A stretch of 28,705 bases of DNA, from the IMG/VR virus record IMGVR_UViG_3300048591_000387, positions 1 to 28,705 of that record; one strand, given 5' to 3'. Positions 6,090 to 23,755 of this stretch are shown one piece after another. Made by a program: the position numbers and the translations under genes. The notes beneath the pieces are model-generated. The model worked only from the letters and a program-made list of their open reading frames with translations, did not search any database and was not told the DNA's origin. Numbering within the stretch: position 1 is the first letter of the stretch; every line of letters begins with the position of its first letter. Origin of the DNA: a virus.

Positions 6090-6985
6090 TCGCCACTTCC
6101 TTCCTCAGTCGTGTCAAAGTCCACCGAAACTTGCGGCACCTCGAACACCTTCCCGGCGTACTTCTCCGGGTATTCGCCCGTCAACTGAGCCCCGGTCAGC
6201 ATCCGCGCCGCCTTCAACCGCTGCGCCGCCGCATAGTGCAACGCCCACTCGCCGAACCGGAACACCGCGACCTCGTGCGGGGCCTCGCTGCACACCAGCA
6301 CAAACCAGAAGTCACGCCGTCCCATACCCGCAGCGTCAACCGCATCCGTGTAGTGGTCCGCCTGGATGTGGTAGCCAAACCCAAGCGCCTTGTACGCCCA
6401 CGCTCGCGGGGATGGCGGCAGCGACCCGACCACCTTCACGTCGATGATCGGCGCGTCGGTGCGATCGGCCAGCCAGTCGATCCGTGCCCGGCAGTCCACG
6501 CCGAGCGCCGCGTCGGGCCACACTATCGTCAACTCGCCATTGCCGGGCTCGTCGAGGATCGGGCCGACGATGGGATTGTTGAGCACAACCGCCGCAATGC
6601 CAATCGCCCTATCGTAGTCACTCACCTTGATGAGCGTCTTTCGCTCATTGACAGCGACGGCCACAGCCTCCGCGTGCTCTTCCTTCCCGGCCTTTGTGCG
6701 CCGGTCGGCACCAGACCACACATGCACCTCGCGGCTCACATCGCCGAACAGCAGCGAATGAACCACCGTGCCCAAGTCCATCGCCTCGGTCGTGGTTCTC
6801 GGCTGCGTCCGCTCACGCCGGTACGCCGCCAACCCCCGCGCGTTGATCGCGTGAATCTGCGAGGCCGAGAGTTCCGGCATCGCGTGGTACTCGTGCGAGG
6901 GTAGGCCCTTGTAGACAGTTGCAGCTTTCCCAGCGAGACATGGTTCAAAGCCGCACAGCCGCGCGGCAAGGTCGGGCATGTTCAT
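6083..6985 (-). CDS. RecE-like / PD-(D/E)XK exonuclease
   Basis: A 300-residue PD-(D/E)XK exonuclease of the RecE C-terminal (exodeoxyribonuclease VIII-like) type. It shows MPELSASQIHAI (about 36-47), MDLGTVVHSLLF (69-80, His76), VDCRARIDWLA (163-173, acidic D164/D170) and IIDVKV (180-185, with D182 and K184 as the D-x-K pair). A helix-rich C-terminus with a QADHY-type segment follows. It should degrade one strand of linear duplex DNA and hand the ssDNA to the RecT/Bet protein encoded next. The start is the ATG at 6985, sharing a base with the preceding TGA and following AGGAGG; the frame stays open upstream, but that would run through two membrane-protein genes. Confidence 0.88.
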   Translation of the reverse strand: MNMPDLAARLCGFEPCLAGKAATVYKGLPSHEYHAMPELSASQIHAINARGLAAYRRERTQPRTTTEAMDLGTVVHSLLFGDVSREVHVWSGADRRTKAGKEEHAEAVAVAVNERKTLIKVSDYDRAIGIAAVVLNNPIVGPILDEPGNGELTIVWPDAALGVDCRARIDWLADRTDAPIIDVKVVGSLPPSPRAWAYKALGFGYHIQADHYTDAVDAAGMGRRDFWFVLVCSEAPHEVAVFRFGEWALHYAAAQRLKAARMLTGAQLTGEYPEKYAGKVFEVPQVSVDFDTTEEGSGEW

Positions 6986-12390: not shown

Positions 12391-12850
12391 CCCCACCTAC
12401 CAGCAAGGCACCGACATCGTGCCCACGCCTACGGGCGTGGACCTGGTGGCGCAGTCGCCCGTGCCCGACGCCGACCCGCTCGCCGAGTTCAAGGACGACC
12501 GGAAGTACCGTGCGAAGTACCTGACACCACGCGCGGCCCTTCGGCGTGCGCAACAGCGGTTGTCGAAGCTTGACAACGAATCGCAAGGGCTCGCGCCCGG
12601 CGTTGCGCAGGTGTTGAAGGAATGGGACGAGGCATATGGCGCGGGCAATCGCCGGATCGTTGACGATCTCGCGTGCATGCTGGAAGCGATGCTCCGGCGT
12701 GGTGATATCTCGGCGAAAGACTTCCGTGAGATATGGCGCGAGATCACCGACCAGACGGATGGACCGCCTACCCAGTCGATGAACCACGAGGTCAATCTGC
12801 TCAGCATAAAGCAAATTGAAGTGCCGGAAGGGACGGCGGAGCGGCTGTAG
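12383..12850 (+). CDS. probable terminase small subunit
   Basis: A 155-residue protein directly in front of the large terminase. It has a charged N-terminus, then helices (AALRRAQQRLSKLDN; VAQVLKEWDEAY; IVDDLACMLEAMLRRGDIS; FREIWREITDQ). No clear HTH motif is visible, so the call rests on position, size and helical content. Small terminases recognise phage DNA ends and regulate the ATPase subunit. The start is a GTG at 12383 overlapping the previous stop. The next gene begins one base after its TAG. Confidence 0.55.
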   Translation: MTDPTYQQGTDIVPTPTGVDLVAQSPVPDADPLAEFKDDRKYRAKYLTPRAALRRAQQRLSKLDNESQGLAPGVAQVLKEWDEAYGAGNRRIVDDLACMLEAMLRRGDISAKDFREIWREITDQTDGPPTQSMNHEVNLLSIKQIEVPEGTAERL

Positions 12851-12851
12851 C

Positions 12852-14126
12852 GTGTCACACGTCTACCGCCCGCTCGGCGCGGCGCTCCAGTTGTTCGGCT
12901 GCCGTGACCGCGAGGTGGTCATCGAAGGCCCCGCCGGCACAGGCAAGTCTCGCGGCGTGTGCGAGAAGGTGTTCGCGGTTGCGGCGAAGTATCCCCGGTC
13001 GCGGCATCTCATGTGCCGCAAGACCAGAGTATCCATGACGCAAAGCGTGCTGCCGATCCTAGAGGGCGACGTGTTCGGGCCGCATGCGTTCCTGCGTGCG
13101 GGTGCCTCGCGTTCGCACCGGACGCGGTACGAGCTGCCCAACGGTGCGGAGATCGTGATAGGCGGGCTCGACAACGCCGACCGGATCATGTCGTCTCAGT
13201 ACGACACGATCAGCGTATTCGAGGCGACCGAGGTCACGCTCGACGATTGGGAGAAGCTGCTATCGCGGTTGCGGAACGGTGCGATGCCGTACCAGCAAGC
13301 GGTCGCGGATTGCAACCCGAGCACGCCGACGCACTTCCTGAATCAGCGCGCGAATGAGGGCAAGATGACGCGGCTTCTCTCGCGCCACCAAGACAACCCG
13401 ATCTGGTATCGGGACGGGCAGTTGACCGAGCGCGGCAAGTTCTACATCGGTGAGGTGCTGGGGTCGCTGACAGGTCCGCGCCGTGAGCGGCTGTTGCATG
13501 GGCGGTGGTGCCAGGCCGAGGGGCTGGTGTACGAGCGGTGGGACGCGGCGGTCCATGTGGTGCCGGGGTTTGCGATCCCGTCCGACTGGCAGCGGTTGCG
13601 GTCGATCGACTTCGGGTTTGTGCATCCGGCGGTGTGCCAGTGGTGGGCGATCGACCCCGATGGGCGTATGTACCTGTACCGGGAGTTGTACGTCAGCAAG
13701 TGGACGACCGATCAGCTCGCCCGCGAGATCATCAAGCTGTCGGGGAGTGAGCGGTACATCGGGACGGTGGCGGACCACGACGCGGGCGACCGCGAGATTC
13801 TTCGGCAGGCGGGCATCCAGACGTTCCCGGCGAAGAAGGACGTGCGCGAGGGGATCAACCGGGTGCAGGAGCGGCTGACCGTGCAAGGCGACGGCAAGGC
13901 GCGGCTGTATGTGCTGGCCGATGCGCTGGTGTTCCGTGACCCTGTGTGCGTCGAGGCGAAGCGCCCGTGCGGGCTGGTGGAAGAGGTCGAGGGGTATGTG
14001 TGGCGTGATAAGCCGAGGCCGGACGCACCAGACAAAGATGAACCCGTGAAGGCGGACGACCATGCGTGCGATGCTGCTCGCTATGGTATTATGTTCGCGG
14101 AGCAGCCTAAGGTGTTTGTGGTCTGA
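12852..14126 (+). CDS. terL: terminase large subunit
   Basis: The 424-residue packaging motor. The ATPase domain has Walker A GPAGTGKS (26-33), a RHLMCRKTRVSM segment (51-62), and Walker B with catalytic glutamate in TISVFEATEV (119-128). The C-terminal RNase-H-like nuclease shows SIDFGF (251-256, D253), VADHDAGDRE (307-315, D308) and KADDHACDAARYG (400-412). It docks on the portal, cuts concatemeric DNA and pumps it into the prohead. The GTG at 12852 begins one base after the previous stop; longer starts would overlap that gene. The length is normal for the family. Confidence 0.95.
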   Translation: MSHVYRPLGAALQLFGCRDREVVIEGPAGTGKSRGVCEKVFAVAAKYPRSRHLMCRKTRVSMTQSVLPILEGDVFGPHAFLRAGASRSHRTRYELPNGAEIVIGGLDNADRIMSSQYDTISVFEATEVTLDDWEKLLSRLRNGAMPYQQAVADCNPSTPTHFLNQRANEGKMTRLLSRHQDNPIWYRDGQLTERGKFYIGEVLGSLTGPRRERLLHGRWCQAEGLVYERWDAAVHVVPGFAIPSDWQRLRSIDFGFVHPAVCQWWAIDPDGRMYLYRELYVSKWTTDQLAREIIKLSGSERYIGTVADHDAGDREILRQAGIQTFPAKKDVREGINRVQERLTVQGDGKARLYVLADALVFRDPVCVEAKRPCGLVEEVEGYVWRDKPRPDAPDKDEPVKADDHACDAARYGIMFAEQPKVFVV

Positions 14127-14141
14127 GGACCAGGGGAAACG

Positions 14142-16571
14142 ATGGGCCTTCTCGACTGGATCACAAGCAAGCGCCGACAGCCCGCGACGGGCAATATGTC
14201 GCAGGTCTACGTTGACTCGACCATCCGCACGGGTGAGCGGCAGGTCTACTCGGCGCAGAATCCGGACGCGGCGCTCGCCGTCTCGCAATGCTTCGGCATG
14301 GTGCAGGTGGCGGTGCAGCGTGTGGCCCGCGACGTTGCGGCGGTGCCGTTGCGGCTGTACCGGCCCGCCGGGGAGCAGGGCGGCAAGGGGTCGCGCGTCG
14401 ATCGTGCGGTCAAGCGGTACCTCGCGTCGGGTGCAGCCGGGAGCAAGGCCGCGACGTTCCGCGCGGACGACGAGCTCGAGATGGTGACGGAACACCCGAT
14501 CCTCGATTGGCTGTCGAGGCCGAATGCCTATATGTCGGGTGTGGAGTTCCGCCAGATTCAGGCCGCGTTCAAGCTGCTCACGGGCTCGGCGTATGTGCTC
14601 GCGGACGCGGACAAGTTCGCCATGCACCCGCTCTATCCGCAATACACGCGGGTCATCGGTGGCACGGATGGCGTGGTCGGCGGGTTTGTCTATGGGCGGT
14701 CGGAAAACGATGTGGTTCTCGCGCCGGATCAGGTCTGGTGGTCGCGGTACATGCCGTCGCCGTTCAGCCCATTGGAGGGGTTGTCCCCGCTTCGGGCCGT
14801 ATTCACCGAGCAGCAGGTCTACGCGGCGGCGAGTCAGATGGAGTTAGCACTGTTCGACAACAGTGGGCGTCCCGACTACATCGCCAGCGTCGAGGGCAAC
14901 GCGGGGCCGGAGCTTATCGAGGCGATCAAGAACAAGTTTGAGGCCCGGCATCGTGGGGCGGCAAAGACCGGGCGCGGGGCGTTCATCGGCAACGGCAAGG
15001 TGACGGTTCAGCCGATCGGGTGGGCACCCAAAGACCTGGGCAACATCGAAACCCAGCGCCACATGGTCACACTGATCCTCGCGGCGCTCGGTGTGCCCGA
15101 GTCGGAGGTGTTCCTCAACGACGCCAACCTCGCGTCTTCGGTGACGGGGAACAAACAGTATCTACGCCAAACGGTGATGCCGATGGCGGTGCATGACGGC
15201 GAGGATTTGACGCGGTGGGTGGTCGAGGGCGTGTTCGGGCTGGACGGGTGGTGCCTCGCGCCCGAGAACATGGTCGGCACGGACTACGCGCAGGAGACGC
15301 TTGTGCTGCAATCACAGCTCGCGTCGGGCGTGGTGTCGATCAATGAGGCCCGGCTCGCGCTTGGGTTTGAGGAAGTCGAGGACGAGCAGGCCGACGTGCT
15401 GCGGATCAATGGGACGCCGCTGGGGCAGCAGCCGCAGGCGTTGAGCCCGTTCGGGCTTTCGGGGGAGGCCGATGGAGCGAAGTCTGCCGATAGCGTTCGT
15501 GGTGACGTTCAACCCGAACGGGATGATGACGGTGGGGCCGTACAGGCCGCCCCAGCCGCCCCCGAGCGAGAGCCCGACCCAGAGCCGGTCGTCGTCCGAG
15601 AAGCCCCCACTGGCGACGCTGGACCCGGCTGCGTGGGCTGCGATTGTGGATCGTGCAAAGCTCAACTGACCAGCGCCCGCAAGGCGTGGCTGGACGACGC
15701 GGCGGCGTGGGCGAAGACGGTGGACCCGATCGGTGACAACGCCGAAGAGGAAGCCGACACCCCAACTATCCGGCTTTACCGGAAGGTTCGCAAGGCACTG
15801 GAGGAACGCCGCGATGCCATTCTTCGTGCCTCGGAAGAGAAGCCGTTCGGGCTGGATCAAAGGGCCTTCGGGATGCGCCAGAAGGCGGATGCGTCCGAGG
15901 AACTTATCCGCCGTCTGCTCTCGGCATGGGGCATCACCGATCAGGCCGCTCGGTTTGCCGATGAGACAGAGGCTGCCACGCGGGCTGAGGCGCAGGCTCT
16001 CTTTGATGCGGGCGTCGAGACGGGGCTGGGGCAGGTGGCGGAGATCACCGAACTGCCGACGCTGGACAACTCACGATCGGTCGCGTTCTTCGAGAACTTC
16101 CAATCGACGTACATTCGTGGGCTCGCGGAGGTCGATAAGACGACTGCCACGCGGGTAGAGGCGGCGTTGCGTGACGCAATGGCCGGGGGCGAGAACCTTC
16201 GGGGCGTGCAGGCGCGTATCCGCGAGGTGTTCGATGGCGAGACGCCGGACGGGCAGCGTGCGAGCGATGCAAGGGCGGCGATGGTGGCGCGGTCCGAGTC
16301 GGCGCGAGCGGTGACGCAGGGGCGCTTTGGTGGGTACGCGGCTGCGGGCGTGACCAAGTATGCGTTCAAGCTGGCCCCGAATGCGTGCGAGTTCTGCGAG
16401 GCGGTCGCGCGCGAGTACGAGGGCAAGGTGGTTACGATCGGCGAGCCGCTGTATAAGCAGGGCTCGGTGTTGCAAGGTGTCGATGGTGGTACAATGAATC
16501 TCGACTTTGACGATACGATCGTGCCGATCCACCCGAACTGTGGGTGCGCGACGACGCCGGTTGTGGAGTGA
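14142..16571 (+). CDS. portal protein fused to MuF head-morphogenesis domain
   Basis: An 809-residue fusion. Residues about 1-440 are an HK97-type portal: an early ALAVSQCFGMVQVAVQRVARDVAAVP-type helix and LYRPAG, LDWLSRPN, then FKLLTGSAYV and the RHMVTLILAALGVPESEVF region near 305-330. A disordered acidic/Pro linker (about 445-495) ends in a tight cysteine cluster, C497, C500, C502, C505. The C-terminal about 250 residues form a MuF-type domain with CEFC (749-752) and HPNCGC (797-802). The portal is the dodecameric DNA gate; MuF proteins are minor internal head proteins. The start ATG follows AGGGGAAACG. Confidence 0.92.
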   Translation: MGLLDWITSKRRQPATGNMSQVYVDSTIRTGERQVYSAQNPDAALAVSQCFGMVQVAVQRVARDVAAVPLRLYRPAGEQGGKGSRVDRAVKRYLASGAAGSKAATFRADDELEMVTEHPILDWLSRPNAYMSGVEFRQIQAAFKLLTGSAYVLADADKFAMHPLYPQYTRVIGGTDGVVGGFVYGRSENDVVLAPDQVWWSRYMPSPFSPLEGLSPLRAVFTEQQVYAAASQMELALFDNSGRPDYIASVEGNAGPELIEAIKNKFEARHRGAAKTGRGAFIGNGKVTVQPIGWAPKDLGNIETQRHMVTLILAALGVPESEVFLNDANLASSVTGNKQYLRQTVMPMAVHDGEDLTRWVVEGVFGLDGWCLAPENMVGTDYAQETLVLQSQLASGVVSINEARLALGFEEVEDEQADVLRINGTPLGQQPQALSPFGLSGEADGAKSADSVRGDVQPERDDDGGAVQAAPAAPEREPDPEPVVVREAPTGDAGPGCVGCDCGSCKAQLTSARKAWLDDAAAWAKTVDPIGDNAEEEADTPTIRLYRKVRKALEERRDAILRASEEKPFGLDQRAFGMRQKADASEELIRRLLSAWGITDQAARFADETEAATRAEAQALFDAGVETGLGQVAEITELPTLDNSRSVAFFENFQSTYIRGLAEVDKTTATRVEAALRDAMAGGENLRGVQARIREVFDGETPDGQRASDARAAMVARSESARAVTQGRFGGYAAAGVTKYAFKLAPNACEFCEAVAREYEGKVVTIGEPLYKQGSVLQGVDGGTMNLDFDDTIVPIHPNCGCATTPVVE

Positions 16572-16576
16572 TTGCT

Positions 16577-16804
16577 ATGGCTATTGAGTTCATCTTTGTG
16601 GGGATTCCTGCCATGCTCGCGCAGTTCATCGGTGGGCCATTCGACGGTGGGGTGATTGCACTCGGGCCGGGGCAGTCGTTCGTCGAGGTGGCGAGCGATG
16701 CTGGCAGTTGGACGCACTACTACATTCTGTCCGAGGGTGCCCTTCGGTACGAGGGGCGGTCGGACGGGATTGAAAGAGAGATGGTCAATGGTACTGGCAT
16801 GTGA
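16577..16804 (+). CDS. hypothetical protein, 75 aa
   Basis: It starts MAIEFIFVGIPAMLAQFIGGPFDGGVIAL at the ATG 16577, after GGAGTG. The segment FIGGPFDGG followed by strands and HYYILSEGALRYEG resembles a small beta-rich protein common in phage virion operons. The role is unknown. It overlaps the next small gene by 17 bases. Confidence 0.65.
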   Translation: MAIEFIFVGIPAMLAQFIGGPFDGGVIALGPGQSFVEVASDAGSWTHYYILSEGALRYEGRSDGIEREMVNGTGM

Positions 16805-16937
16805 ACAATGCGCCCGTGTTGGATGTCAACACGATTTCTACACGATGGGTATTATCGCTCTGGCGTGTCTGATCGCCGGGCTGGGGGTTGTCGTATGGCG
16901 TCGATCGCGGACAGGCTGCGCGAACGGTATGGGCTGA
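16788..16937 (+). CDS. small Cys-rich membrane protein, 49 aa
   Basis: It begins MVLACEQCARVGCQHDFY: two CxxC-like pairs with a histidine. A transmembrane helix (MGIIALACLIAGLGVVVWRR) and a short basic tail follow. GAAAGAGAG lies before the ATG. Its end overlaps the protease start by 43 bases, which is unusual and lowers confidence. Its cysteine head plus TM tail resembles the protein at 10838-11074. Confidence 0.45.
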   Translation: MVLACEQCARVGCQHDFYTMGIIALACLIAGLGVVVWRRSRTGCANGMG

Positions 16938-17569
16938 AGGCGGATACCGATGTCGGCGTGCGCCCCGCGTTCGCCGAGATCAAAGAGTCGTCGCCGGGAA
17001 TGGTCACGGCCATCGCCAACACGGCGGCGATTGATCTGGTCGATGAGGTTGTGGTGCCCGAGGGTGCCGAGCGGGACGAGAAGGGCCAGCCGGTCTACTT
17101 CGGCACGGCGAAAGCCATCTTCTACAACCACAACTACGACCTGCCGCCCATCGGGACGTTCCGCAACGCCCGGCTGACCCCGAAGGGCTGGGTTTCGCAG
17201 TTCTCGCTCAGCAAGGCCACCCAGTTCGCCCGGGACATCGGGGCGCTGATCGGCGAGGGCGCGATCAACGGGGTGTCGATCGGGTTCATCCGGCTGATGG
17301 GAGGGAAGCTCACAGACGATGAGGTGGCCCGGTACGGCATGGCCGAGTTCATCACGCGGTCCTGGCGTTGGCTTGAACTGTCGGTGACGCCCCAGCCGTG
17401 CAACCCCGAGGCGTGGATCACGGGGGCGAAGTCGGTGCCCGATGAGGCGTTCGCTGAGAAGGTAAGGAAGGCTATGGAGCGGCGGGTGGTGGGCGAGGAT
17501 ACGGCGCGGGCGCTGGGCGTTCCGGCACGAAAGAAGATCATTGTGATGGGTGTGCGGACACCGGGATGA
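16895..17569 (+). CDS. HK97-type prohead protease (S78-like)
   Basis: A 224-residue head maturation protease. The catalytic His lies in NHNYDLPPIG (His79), the serine in GVSIGF (Ser128), and the third conserved segment is WRWLELSVTPQPCNPEA (157-173), in which the acidic residue and SVT/PxNPxA close the fold. It should cleave the capsid N-terminal scaffold region. The ATG at 16895 follows GGGGG at seven bases; the longer frame runs through the small membrane protein. Unlike most HK97-type operons, about 500 gene-free bases separate it from the capsid gene. Confidence 0.93.
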   Translation: MASIADRLRERYGLKADTDVGVRPAFAEIKESSPGMVTAIANTAAIDLVDEVVVPEGAERDEKGQPVYFGTAKAIFYNHNYDLPPIGTFRNARLTPKGWVSQFSLSKATQFARDIGALIGEGAINGVSIGFIRLMGGKLTDDEVARYGMAEFITRSWRWLELSVTPQPCNPEAWITGAKSVPDEAFAEKVRKAMERRVVGEDTARALGVPARKKIIVMGVRTPG

Positions 17570-17579
17570 GAGATTTGCG

Positions 17580-17603
17580 TATGTGGTATACTGTGTGGCA
17601 TAC
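17580..17603 (+). repeat. 12-bp tandem repeat with extended -10 element
   Basis: TATGTGGTATAC and TGTGTGGCATAC stand head to tail (10 of 12 identical). The pair contains TG-G-TATACT (17584-17592), an extended -10 sequence without a -35. It could start transcription of the structured region and capsid gene; alternatively GGTAT (17585-17589) pairs with ATACC (17600-17604) as the first hairpin of the RNA, with GUGUGG in its loop. Confidence 0.45.
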
Positions 17604-18058
17604 CTGACCGGGTTTCCGGTTTGACTCCTAGATGGAGTCCGCCCACCGTCGATCGCTACCCGACGCTGGGCATTGCAAACCAAGTGGGGCGTCGTGTCTC
17701 CGAGCGGCGATCCAGTGACGGTATCGGGTGATGAGCATGGATATACACATGCAGCCGTGCGGTTTGTAGTGGGATGGCCGACCCCAAGCGGCCCTCCCGC
17801 ATTCTGGTGGCACTTGTCCGAACGGACCTGCCACCCATCGGCCGCGACTTGGTTCATCCGGTCGCGGTTGATTGGCGAGAGTACGGGGGAGTGCCCGCAT
17901 CCGCAAGGGTGACGGGCGCATTGGGCGGGGTGTTCCCGCTCGACATGATGGGACAGGCTAAGAACAGCCGACTCCATCGGCGGCGCTAGTGCAATGCTAG
18001 CCCACGTCGAGCAGGCGAGCGATCGGGCCTACGTTGCTCGGGCGCTGACCTTGCGCCC
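17580..18058 (+). ncRNA. candidate large structured RNA (right copy), protease-capsid gap
   Basis: About 480 bases without a gene, folded almost end to end. Helices: GACTCC/GGAGTC 17623-17639; 17641-17671 (GCCCA-C-CGTCG/CGACG-C-TGGGC); 17735-17752; 17769-17800; 17806-17835 (GGTGGCA/TGCCACC enclosing GTCC-GAAC-GGAC); 17837-17872 (12 bp, two G-U); 17891-17919 (7 bp plus ATCC-GCAA-GGGT, a GNRA loop); 17921-17943 (9 bp, two G-U); 17956-17969; 17982-18003; 18016-18040 (7 bp, one G-U); 18040-18058. GATGGAGTC (17631-17639) can pair with GACTCCATC (17970-17978), closing the whole. The G-U pairs would be A-C mismatches on the other strand, so the RNA is plus-strand. It may act as RNA or as a very long capsid leader. 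Confidence 0.7.
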
Positions 18059-18069
18059 ACGGGGGCAGA

Positions 18070-19539
18070 ATGAATCAGATTGCGCAGGCCCTGCGTCGGC
18101 AGGGATACAAGGGCGCGCTCAGCGACCCGAACGCCGTTCGCGCGTTCATCACGACTGAGTGCCCGATGGAGTTCACCGATCAGGACGGCAAGACTCTTAC
18201 GACCGATCAGGCCGTTGAGTATGCCGCGAAGAAGGTGACGATCTCTGTTGCCGCGGACGCGGGCGAAGAGGTTGAGGTGTCCGGCGCGAAGGCCGGTGGC
18301 ATGGACGACGAGGCACCCGAGGGCGAAGAGCCCATGCCCAAGTCCGCACCCAAGCCGAAGGCAAAGGCCAAGACGATCGAGAGCGTGATTGTTGCTCCGT
18401 TCGTCGGCTTCTCGCCCCAGGCGTCAGCACGCCGGGCCGAGGCCAAGGCGTACAACCGCAAGGCTGCCGAGGGCAAGGCGGCGTTCTCCGATGCCGACAC
18501 CGCCGAGGCGTTCCGCGCGTGGTTCAAGACCACCGCGTTCCGCAACTTCGACTACTCGGGCAAGTCGCTTGATCGGGAGATCGTGAGCAAGGCTCAGATT
18601 TCGACCACGTTCACCGCTGGCGGTGCCTTGGTCCCCGACGAGTTCCTGCCCGATCTGGTCCGCTTGCGTGAAATCTACAACGTGGCAGACGGCCTCGCCC
18701 GCGAGGTCAAGATGTCCAACGGCACCATCTCCCTGCCCCGGCGTACCGGCGGTCTGACCGTCTACGCTCCCGGCGAGGGTGGTGCGAGCACGGCGTCCGA
18801 GGCGTCGTACGACACATACAACATCAACGCCGTCAAGCGTACGGTGCTTGCCGAGTATTCGAGCGAGCTTCTGAACGATGGTGACATCAGCATCGCCGAC
18901 GAGCTGGCGAATGAGATCGTCTACGCATTCGAGAAGAACATCGCCGAGTGCCTGATCAAGGGCGATGGAACCACGACCTACCAGGGTGCGATCGGGTACC
19001 AGCAGGCCATCCTTGGTCTGTCGGCGACCCGCGCGAACATCGCTGGTGCGGTGGTGGGCACGGGCAACCTCTACAGCGAGCTTGCCATCGCCGATTTCCA
19101 GAAGGTTGCCGGTCGCTTGCCCGACTTCGACTCCATCTCTGGTGAGCCTTCTTGGTACGTCAATAAGCGTTTCTACTACGAGGTGATGGTCCGCATCACG
19201 TTGGCTGTGGGTGGCGTGACGGCTGCCGAGGTCAACGGGAAGATGGTTCCCATGTTCCTCGGATCGCCCGTCAAGTTCGTTCGCTCGATGCCCCGCACCG
19301 AGGCGAACGATCAGGTGTGTGCCCTGTACGGCTGGGGCTACGAGGCCGCGTCGATCGGTCGCGTGAACGGTTCTATGGAGATCGCCACGTCTGCTGATTT
19401 CAACTTCGACAATGACCTGTTCACCGTTCGCGGCATCCACCGCGCCGGCGTGACGGTCCACAGCGTCGGCAACGCGAGCGGCACCGAGTCCGCCCGCGAG
19501 CCGGGTCCGATCGTGGCACTTCTCACCGCCGCGTCCTAA
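18070..19539 (+). CDS. major capsid protein, HK97 fold, with N-terminal scaffold region
   Basis: A 489-residue protein. Residues 1-120 are a charged, low-complexity region (Glu, Lys, Pro and Ala rich) that should act as a delta/scaffold domain removed by the protease. The HK97 core starts around 140-180: EAFRAWFK, then TAGGALVPDEFLPDLV, ISLPRRTGG, TVLAEYSSELLNDGDISIADELANEIVYAFEKNIAECLIKGDG, YVNKRFYYEVM, and FLGSPVKFVRSMPRTE, the usual order of N-arm, spine helix, A-domain and P-domain. The start ATG follows GGGGGCAG, only 12 bases after the last hairpin of the structured region. It assembles the icosahedral shell. Confidence 0.95.
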   Translation: MNQIAQALRRQGYKGALSDPNAVRAFITTECPMEFTDQDGKTLTTDQAVEYAAKKVTISVAADAGEEVEVSGAKAGGMDDEAPEGEEPMPKSAPKPKAKAKTIESVIVAPFVGFSPQASARRAEAKAYNRKAAEGKAAFSDADTAEAFRAWFKTTAFRNFDYSGKSLDREIVSKAQISTTFTAGGALVPDEFLPDLVRLREIYNVADGLAREVKMSNGTISLPRRTGGLTVYAPGEGGASTASEASYDTYNINAVKRTVLAEYSSELLNDGDISIADELANEIVYAFEKNIAECLIKGDGTTTYQGAIGYQQAILGLSATRANIAGAVVGTGNLYSELAIADFQKVAGRLPDFDSISGEPSWYVNKRFYYEVMVRITLAVGGVTAAEVNGKMVPMFLGSPVKFVRSMPRTEANDQVCALYGWGYEAASIGRVNGSMEIATSADFNFDNDLFTVRGIHRAGVTVHSVGNASGTESAREPGPIVALLTAAS

Positions 19540-20595: not shown

Positions 20596-21564
20596 GTGGC
20601 AATCTGCACCCGCAACCAAGTCCTGCAATACATCGGGCTCTCGGACACATCATCTGAGGAGCCCGCGATCATTGTGCAGGCCGTGACGCCGAGCGGATCG
20701 TCTACGGTGTCGCAGGTCACGCTGTCGATCGCGTCCTTTGTGCTGACCGTTACTCCAAACGTGACGGCTGGTGCGGCCATTTCCCCCGCGACGTTCGATC
20801 TGCTCGACGAGGACTATGACACACTCTCGGAGTTGACGACGGCACTCAACGCGCTCGGGTATCTCAACGCGATTCGAGCGACAGAGGACGCTACGGTTCC
20901 ATCGTCCCTGATCTCGGTGGACGCTACGCCGATTGCCGCTAACACGCTGGGCACGATCACCTACGACAACCCGACGACCGATAGCACGGTCGGGCTAATC
21001 GACACACTGATACCGGCGGTGGAACTGGAGTTTGAGCGGTTCACGGGGCGGAAGGTGGACGCCGAGGCGCTGGACGAGCGGTACGACGGGGACGGGGCGG
21101 AGGTCATCGTGTTGCGGTCGGCACCAGCGACGGTGACGGCGGTTTCGCTGATCGACGCGGACGGGTCGGCAACTACTGTTGCGTCCACGGAATACTACGC
21201 GGACACGGAGCGGGGCTTCCTGTACGCCCGGAGCGGATCGACGCACACCTACGGCTTTGTGCCCGATGGGTACGGCGACGGGCCCGCGCGGAACCGTGCG
21301 CCGCTGTACCGCTGGCCCGAGGGCACGCGGAACGTGCGGGTGCAATACACGGGTGGGTGGTCCACTGATTCCAACGATCCCAACTTTGTGCCGGCGGACC
21401 TGTCGCTTGCGGCGTGTCGCCGGATCGCGGACCTGATCGCGGATCGGCGGAACAATCGGATGATGACAACAGACTCTATGCAGGGCCGAATGTTGGTCCG
21501 CAACGTGGCGTCTGAATACGCCACGCTAATGAACTACTTCGGCCCTTGGCGGCGGGAGGCGTAG
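20596..21564 (+). CDS. head-tail connector (gp6-like) with extra inserted domain
   Basis: A 322-residue adaptor. The N-terminal QVLQYIGLSD and the core from about 137 on (LIDTLIPAVELEFERFTGRKVD, AVSLIDADG, STEYYADTERGFLYARSG, NVRVQYTGGWS, VPADLSLAACRRIADLIADRRN) match the HK97 gp6/Phage_connect_1 layout, which usually totals about 100-200 residues. Residues about 25-130 (repeated Thr/Ser/Val strands with a TLSELTTALNALGYLNA helix) are an additional domain. It sits as a ring under the portal. The start is a GTG four bases after the previous stop. Confidence 0.8.
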   Translation: MAICTRNQVLQYIGLSDTSSEEPAIIVQAVTPSGSSTVSQVTLSIASFVLTVTPNVTAGAAISPATFDLLDEDYDTLSELTTALNALGYLNAIRATEDATVPSSLISVDATPIAANTLGTITYDNPTTDSTVGLIDTLIPAVELEFERFTGRKVDAEALDERYDGDGAEVIVLRSAPATVTAVSLIDADGSATTVASTEYYADTERGFLYARSGSTHTYGFVPDGYGDGPARNRAPLYRWPEGTRNVRVQYTGGWSTDSNDPNFVPADLSLAACRRIADLIADRRNNRMMTTDSMQGRMLVRNVASEYATLMNYFGPWRREA

Positions 21565-21902
21565 TGCTTTCCAACGCCAACGCCGAGGTATCTGTGTTCG
21601 TGCGGCAGCAATCGCGCGATGTGTCCGGCGCGCTCATTACCAAATGGGCTTGCTCGGCACACAAGGCGGCGTGCTACATCCAGACGAATACGGCTGCCGA
21701 GAACGTGCGTGCGGGCGGGGAGCGTTCGGTGTTCGCAGGCATTGCCGAGTTCCCCATCTATATCGACGTGACGCAGGGTGATCGGCTTGTGTGGGATACC
21801 AGAACGCTCCAGGTGGACGCCAGCCACCGCGTATATCGCAATGGTGACTTCGCGGACAGGTATCGGGTCGAGTGGTCGGAGGTGCGCAATGCCGGTGCTT
21901 AG
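21564..21902 (+). CDS. head closure / head-tail joining protein, 112 aa
   Basis: The GTG start shares a base with the TAG of the connector gene (TAGTG). The C-terminal half (AEFPIYIDVTQGDRLVWDTRTLQVDA, then RYRVEWSEV) has the small beta-barrel pattern of phage head-tail joining proteins (SPP1 gp16/HK97 gp9 type), in which a strand ending GDRL precedes further strands. It should close the portal channel after packaging. Position between gp6-like and gp10-like genes agrees. Confidence 0.7.
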   Translation: MLSNANAEVSVFVRQQSRDVSGALITKWACSAHKAACYIQTNTAAENVRAGGERSVFAGIAEFPIYIDVTQGDRLVWDTRTLQVDASHRVYRNGDFADRYRVEWSEVRNAGA

Positions 21903-22912: not shown

Positions 22913-23755
22913 ATGGCTGTCTTTGTGGTCAATGGTGTGGTCCCCACTTCCTGGGCGGGGAACAATAACGGCATCCTGATCGGCGTGGGAACGGGCGCTG
23001 GCGTCAAGCACCGCGAGGCTTCGCTGTCGATTGATGCGGGCTCGAACGATACGACCGCGTTCTCGGCTGCGGCCGCGTTCACGTCGTCGATCACGGGGCT
23101 GCGCGGGTCGTCGGTGCAGTTCTCCGGCCGCTGGGAACCCGCGAACAACTCCAACTCCATCGCCATCACCTACACGAACGGGTACATCGCCAACCTTCGC
23201 CGGTTGACCATGAACATCTCGTATGCGGTGCAGGAGTCTACGGTGTCGGATGGCTCTGGTGTCGTGGCCCGATCGTATCTGCCGGGGCTCTACACGGTCC
23301 GAGGGCAGTACGAGTGCTTTGTCGATGACACCACGGCGATCGTGCTGCCTGGTAGTTCCACGTCGGGCTCGGCGACGTTCAAGTTCATCGAAAACTCCAG
23401 CGACGACCATACCGCTGCGGGCACGATCCGATCAACGGTCGCCAATATCGGCATGGCCGTGGGCAACATCCCGACGATCACCTACGACTACGAGTTTGAG
23501 TCTGCGGTGACGTTCGCCGGTGAGACCGACGGCTCTACCGGGACGTACCACAGCTCGCCGTTCAAGTATTGGATCGACTCGGCCTCTGGCGTGCTCGGCA
23601 CGTCGGCGACTGGATCGCTGGTGCTGACGGCGGCGACGGGTCGGACGTACACGGCAAACGCATTCCCGGCCGCGATCAACATTGAAGCGGTGGTGGGGCA
23701 GCCTCTCGGGATCACGGTCAACGCGCAGATTTCCGGCAACGTGACAGTGGGATAA
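22913..23755 (+). CDS. major tail tube protein
   Basis: A 280-residue beta-rich protein: HREASLSIDAGSNDTTAFS, GLRGSSVQFSGRWEP, LTMNISYAVQEST, then a second set of strands. The order of a short strand pair, D-x-S-x-D-T-T and a GxxxxSGRW-type turn is typical of siphovirus tail tubes. The C-terminal part (FVDDTTAIVLPGSS, NIPTITYDYEFES, FPAAINIEAVVGQPL) repeats a similar beta plan and may be a second tube-like or Ig-like domain. It should polymerise around the tape measure. Confidence 0.75.
   Translation: MAVFVVNGVVPTSWAGNNNGILIGVGTGAGVKHREASLSIDAGSNDTTAFSAAAAFTSSITGLRGSSVQFSGRWEPANNSNSIAITYTNGYIANLRRLTMNISYAVQESTVSDGSGVVARSYLPGLYTVRGQYECFVDDTTAIVLPGSSTSGSATFKFIENSSDDHTAAGTIRSTVANIGMAVGNIPTITYDYEFESAVTFAGETDGSTGTYHSSPFKYWIDSASGVLGTSATGSLVLTAATGRTYTANAFPAAINIEAVVGQPLGITVNAQISGNVTVG

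Follow-up and report, generated by a model that had tools for sequence, protein, structure and literature searches.

What occupies the stretch between the protease and capsid genes of this phage? The window analyzed here, i.e., a 28.7-kb virus record from IMG/VR, carries its head genes in the order large terminase (12816–14126), portal (14142–16571), head maturation protease of the S78 family (16808–17569, + strand; Pfam PF04586, PHROG 80), and HK97-type major capsid protein (18070–19539, + strand; Pfam PF05065, PHROG 10). An apparent second gap, between portal and protease, is filled by a small ORF of ~75 aa (16579–16804). From protease stop to capsid start, 500 bases (17570–18069, + strand) are free of genes; they lie directly upstream of the capsid gene and on its strand, and both flanking genes are complete with normal domains. 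An earlier note, made from the sequence alone, had proposed a large structured RNA of unrecognized class for this gap, which we here consider as a putative leader RNA or non-coding RNA.

The gap is non-coding. Codon-use log-odds for 17570–18069 fell below zero in every one of the six frames (about −0.19 to −0.38 bits/codon), compared to +0.26 to +0.48 bits/codon in 12 of 13 reference genes and 0.04 in the last. GC content was flat over the codon positions, no frame showed coding periodicity, and ORFs within the gap, on either strand, had no meaningful match in Pfam. These three results bear out the claim that no gene is present. A decayed gene was rejected given the absent coding signal and the lack of similarity to the cargo gene found at this position in the closest relative (L165, see below).

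Folding of the + strand of 17580–18058 yielded a minimum free energy (MFE) of −236.1 kcal/mol, which is far below that of dinucleotide-shuffled controls: the z-score was −4.8 against 100 shuffles, none of which reached this energy, −4.1 against a separate set of 150, and −5.3 in a tiling of the contig (16 shuffles). The minus strand of the gap reached −2.6 to −3.2. When the + strand of the contig was tiled in 479-nt windows, the gap topped the ranking for excess energy per base (−0.065 kcal/mol per nt), and the runner-up among non-overlapping windows followed with −0.037 kcal/mol per nt. A tiling of both strands at 240 nt placed 17761–18000 (+ strand) first with a z-score of −5.2, compared to −1.6 on the minus strand. 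Since some coding windows reach z-scores of about −4 to −4.8 in this noisier scan, energy alone is not unique to the gap; the hairpin count is. The MFE structure of 17580–18058 contains 16 hairpins, compared to 8.9 ± 1.9 in shuffles and 8.7 ± 1.7 (maximum 13) in the other 479-nt windows of the contig. The gap therefore folds beyond chance by both energy and hairpin number, and the two tests are best read as a structured RNA lying between the protease and capsid genes. As for individual coding windows, 21361–21600 nearly matches the gap, with z-scores of −4.1 and −4.8 on its two strands (20 shuffles).

The argument that G–U pairs reveal selection on the plus-strand RNA found no such backing. 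G–U pairs make up 12.7% of all pairs, compared to 13.8 ± 2.2% in shuffles, i.e., they are not enriched, and the energy difference between plus and minus strand was reached by 6.7% of the shuffles, which is marginal (p about 0.07). The strand asymmetry mostly reflects base composition.

The predicted architecture (all + strand) begins with two adjacent 5′ hairpins (17606–17621 and 17623–17639; pair probabilities 0.95 and 0.99). These are followed in the MFE structure by a multibranched domain (17642–17889), closed by 17642–17650/17881–17889 plus 17653–17658/17873–17878 (P about 0.7). Its arms are 17659–17670, the branched 17674–17768, and 17769–17800, 17806–17835, and 17837–17872, the last three with P of 0.94–1.0. 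Further downstream lie a 12-bp hairpin with a bulged A and a GCAA (GNRA) tetraloop at 17903–17906 (17891–17919, P 1.00), a 9-bp hairpin (17921–17943, P 0.93), a hairpin with an inner GGCU-AAGAAC-AGCC arm (17947–17978, P 0.96–0.98; inverted repeat I2), a long imperfect hairpin of 22 bp (17979–18050, P 0.65), and a small hairpin, GCCC-ACGG-GGGC, that includes the capsid Shine–Dalgarno sequence GGGGG (18055–18066, P 0.69). An alternative pairing of 18040–18045 with 18053–18058 (GGGCGC/GCGCCC) would be predicted to free this Shine–Dalgarno sequence. Most helices named in the earlier note reappear here: the GNRA loop is part of the MFE structure, as are the hairpins 17769–17800, 17837–17872, 17891–17919, and 17921–17943 (pair probabilities of at least 0.93). 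Hairpin 18016–18040 forms when 17580–18058 is folded alone and is replaced by 17979–18050 in longer context. The 9-bp pair proposed to close a multibranched domain (17631–17639 with 17970–17978) is indeed complementary, but its probability as a closing helix is about 0, and forcing it costs 5.9 kcal/mol. It competes with the stronger local hairpins 17623–17639 (P 0.99) and 17947–17978 (P 0.96) and is shut out of the ensemble because of them; 17642–17658 with 17873–17889 is the better closure of the central domain.

We searched for relatives of this RNA at several levels. Rfam at the gathering score gave no match for the gap RNA in the window, and at E-values up to 10 the region 17400–18200 returned chance matches only, e.g., HgcF with 19 bits compared to a cut-off of 70. 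No Rfam family was thus found, including GOLLD and ROOL. There was likewise no match to the Rfam model of phi29-type prohead RNA (pRNA) or to group I or group II intron models, and no interrupted gene was found. By these sequence-based tests, the gap RNA is not GOLLD, ROOL, an intron, or pRNA. Protein-guided scans covered 80 terminase relatives and two sets of 80 capsid relatives, in none of which the gap sequence occurs. Comparison with phage and plasmid collections by blastn found nothing, and 242 loci, related ones among them, yielded nothing beyond chance with blastn at word size 7 or with nhmmer. A single-sequence covariance model of the core (R1; 17769–17945, + strand) revealed no credible homologue in 100 related virus records, and its three weak matches in 595 actinobacterial and pseudomonad genomes, all actinobacterial, were judged to be chance: the best one (L314) begins inside a tRNA gene, and the second and third are poor alignments in G+C-rich DNA. 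An exact 25-mer pattern had no match in IMG/VR. Two 16-mer patterns matched 64 and 4 stretches there, with no credible nhmmer or R1 match around them, and an 18-mer pattern matched three times in genome_contigs; all of these were judged to be chance. The contig holds no second copy of the gap sequence. Within the collections searched, the gap RNA thus appears to be an orphan.

Whereas the head genes had been presumed to be packed tightly, related phages usually keep 79–260 nt between protease and capsid (24 distinct pairs); spacing is therefore normal at this slot, and only the size of 500 nt is unusual. In 19 related leaders, the mean folding z-score was −1.84, compared to −0.31 in 114 control windows of the same records (p = 1e-4), and the minus strand was likewise more structured (p = 1e-6), although kinship among some of the records makes these p-values optimistic. 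The agreement between the strands arises because hairpins are palindromes. In related phages, the slot holds a structured leader. The capsid leaders of L003, L082/L083, and the clade of L016, L027, L029, and L038 resemble the gap in slot, strand, hairpin richness, and lack of coding capacity, and the L016–L045 clade also carries a −10-like box at the 5′ edge, as does the window. They differ from the 500-nt gap in length (79–260 nt) and share no sequence similarity with it. In the L003 leader (6565–6714), we observed three strong hairpins (z about −6 on the + strand and −1.8 on the − strand), the 3′ one of which takes in the Shine–Dalgarno sequence GGGAA.

The slot is also a cargo site in relatives. 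The closest relative, L165 (43% over nearly the full capsid), carries there a 155-aa ORF (L165:1870–2337) without a Pfam match, of which a 48% homologue occurs upstream of the protease in L187 (800–1237); it has the appearance of a small mobile gene carried as cargo. A promoter, TTGACA-17-TGG.TAGTAT, is found ~148 nt before the capsid start of L165. In L236, the gap (1566–2155) is filled by long inverted repeats with a folding z-score of −12 on both strands, perhaps a MITE-like element inserted into a phage head operon; translations of these repeats show TTESRRHGG/HEGTK-like peptides. In the next closest relatives over the full length, L082/L083, gaps measure 87–89 nt.

Regarding transcription, a TG-extended −10-like box, TGGTATACT (17584–17592, + strand), is a putative promoter from which the RNA would start near 17599. 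It is the only TGNTATAMT of the contig (0.10 expected) and scores best of the boxes close to the protease stop (p = 0.007, taking a 45-nt window). No good −35 element was found for it and a simple two-hexamer scan found no promoter at this site, i.e., the box is a consensus match only. Across these phages, boxes score higher near the protease stop than at the ends of other genes (p = 2e-5). About seven relatives have a matching box that coincides with conserved C-terminal codons of the protease, and therefore only the window and the L016–L045 clade count as promoter support. As the + strand contains no terminator-like site within 17000–19000, transcription should run into the capsid gene. Concerning translation, the capsid Shine–Dalgarno sequences of related phages are slightly less accessible than those of control genes (mean unpaired 0.33 vs. 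0.40, p = 0.02). A specially hidden capsid Shine–Dalgarno sequence in the window was considered and rejected, its occlusion being ordinary.

Taken as a strongly structured, non-coding, orphan stretch, the gap is most likely a capsid leader. Stated in full, we see about an even chance that the capsid mRNA carries it as a 5′ untranslated leader, which has grown to about 470 nt in this phage. It is non-coding, lies on the same strand and directly upstream of the capsid gene with no terminator between, and is structured above chance, all of which is expected of a leader. Transcription would start near 17599, from the TG-extended −10 promoter behind the protease stop that the consensus match suggests, and the RNA is predicted to fold into the two 5′ hairpins, the multibranched domain, and the 3′ hairpin row, ending in a weak hairpin over the capsid Shine–Dalgarno sequence (18055–18066), which the pairing 18040–18045/18053–18058 could release. 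Such a leader would most likely act in cis, shielding the very abundant capsid message from 5′-end and RNase E-type decay, and would pace ribosome access to provide the right amount of capsid relative to protease and portal. The slight Shine–Dalgarno occlusion in relatives leads us to prefer protection and pacing of the message to tight switching.

Several findings count against the capsid leader. A comparable leader is absent from the relatives, L165 carrying a small gene and L082/L083 only 87–89 nt, and the promoter box lacks a −35 element. Furthermore, ~470 nt and 16 hairpins would go far beyond the needs of stabilization or Shine–Dalgarno control. Capsid mRNA leaders of the T7 gene 10 type contain 5′ stabilizing hairpins or RNase III sites. 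They are like the gap in that a structure immediately precedes a capsid gene with high expression, but they are short (tens of nucleotides) and have no multibranched domain. The excess of capsid over portal and protease in tailed phages is usually credited to promoters and ribosome-binding sites; if a structured leader does occupy the slot across this broad group of uncultivated phages, and one of them has ballooned to ~470 nt, the leader would be a control element as well. Otherwise, the gap RNA would join, as an orphan, the small number of large phage RNAs without a known role.

The main rival to the capsid leader is a stand-alone RNA, trans-acting or structural and of the GOLLD, ROOL, or ICP1 type, which would sit in the slot as cargo and be processed from the capsid message. 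We regard this as possible but rather unlikely. Its main argument is size, ~470 nt compared to leaders of 80–200 nt in relatives, and the multibranched domain, the GNRA loop, and a promoter-like box of its own fit it too, as does the unrelated cargo that the slot accepts elsewhere (the 155-aa ORF of L165 and the inverted-repeat DNA of L236). A precedent is found in phage ICP1, among whose transcripts an orf-less RNA of ~800 nt, to which no role has been assigned, is the most abundant; it is located between gp139 and gp140 and was demonstrated by RNA-seq (PMC7567579). Both RNAs occupy a gene-free gap and have no assigned function, and they differ in that the ICP1 RNA adjoins the lysis cluster and was seen by RNA-seq. 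GOLLD and ROOL are comparable as large, ornate, gene-free phage RNAs; the gap RNA differs in that it measures roughly 470 nt, lies between head genes and not in a tRNA cluster, and matches neither covariance model, even at an E-value of 10. GOLLD and ROOL usually occur near tRNA genes (PMC7567579), but at the gap no such neighborhood was found, with a single ARAGORN tRNA 5 kb away and none by cmscan. Also against a stand-alone RNA, no copy was found in the other phages, plasmids, and genomes searched, and no terminator or processing site was recognized before the capsid gene. On balance, the setting (promoter-like box, strand, missing terminator, structured leaders in relatives) speaks for a capsid leader no less than for a free GOLLD/ROOL-like RNA. 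The one ARAGORN prediction of the window, a tRNA-Arg (cct) at 22918–22998 inside the ORF 22913–23755, is probably a false positive because cmscan finds no tRNA in the window.

Two further readings seem improbable to a similar degree. The first is a large multibranched phage RNA (~470 nt) of a new class, inserted between the protease and capsid genes and acting in capsid assembly as a scaffold, packaged RNA, or trans-regulator and not simply as an mRNA leader. The second is that the gap has no present function and is what is left of a decayed gene or of a mobile or palindromic insert, with hairpins as leftover inverted repeats. The acceptance of inserts by the slot in relatives would suit a remnant, and so would the marginal strand asymmetry and the mostly local hairpins, which the minus strand forms too (z −2.6 to −3.2). 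However, neither terminal inverted repeats nor a target-site duplication is conspicuous, each hairpin differs from the others, coding periodicity is absent from every frame, similarity to the L165 cargo protein does not exceed chance, and the contig has no second copy. A DNA-level element, e.g., a protein-binding array or a replication or packaging site whose palindromes fold as RNA by accident, is very unlikely. The hairpins are near-palindromic on both strands, but they share no repeated sequence of the kind found in binding arrays, and the + strand folds better than the − strand, though this is largely a matter of composition. The least credible reading is a self-cleaving or self-splicing RNA of a known type (group I or II intron, ribozyme, or pRNA) that is too diverged for Rfam: size and multibranched fold are within the range of group I introns, but no such family is among the matches up to an E-value of 10, the gap interrupts neither of the two complete genes it separates, and inspection by eye revealed no core motifs of group I or II introns.

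The capsid leaders of the sister clade (L016, L021, L024, L027, L029/L031, L038, L045, L066, and L161) share a motif, which applies to L016:4284–4469, L027:8211–8401, L029:8366–8562, L038:11792–11980, and L045:11149–11336. Its layout comprises the −10-like box (gggTAyAmTg, 7–10 nt behind the protease stop), CTCCTcc, hairpin 1, an invariant TTCAA(C/G)(C/T)GAATA segment, and hairpin 2 (CCTGC..GCAGG). The invariant TTCAACCGAATA motif of the clade, between hairpins 1 and 2, is absent from the window: the TTCAA(C/G)(C/T)GAATA segment has no match within three mismatches in or near the gap. Comparison of L027 (8150–8450) to Rfam gave no credible match. The stems of hairpin 1 are unrelated in the L016, L027, L029, and L038 types (CCUGCCAGCG/CGCUGGCGGG, GGGCUGCACG/CGUGCAGCCU, GCGGCAGG/CCUGCCGC, and CCCGGCA/UGCCGGG), with place and length being kept; by inspection, without a formal count, hairpin 1 thus seems to show compensatory change. 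RNAalifold on a sequence alignment of the clade leaders, which does not register hairpin 1, reported two-sided changes in 12 of 30 pairs. This layout may itself be a new cis-regulatory RNA motif, and its CTCCTcc segment is anti-Shine–Dalgarno-like.
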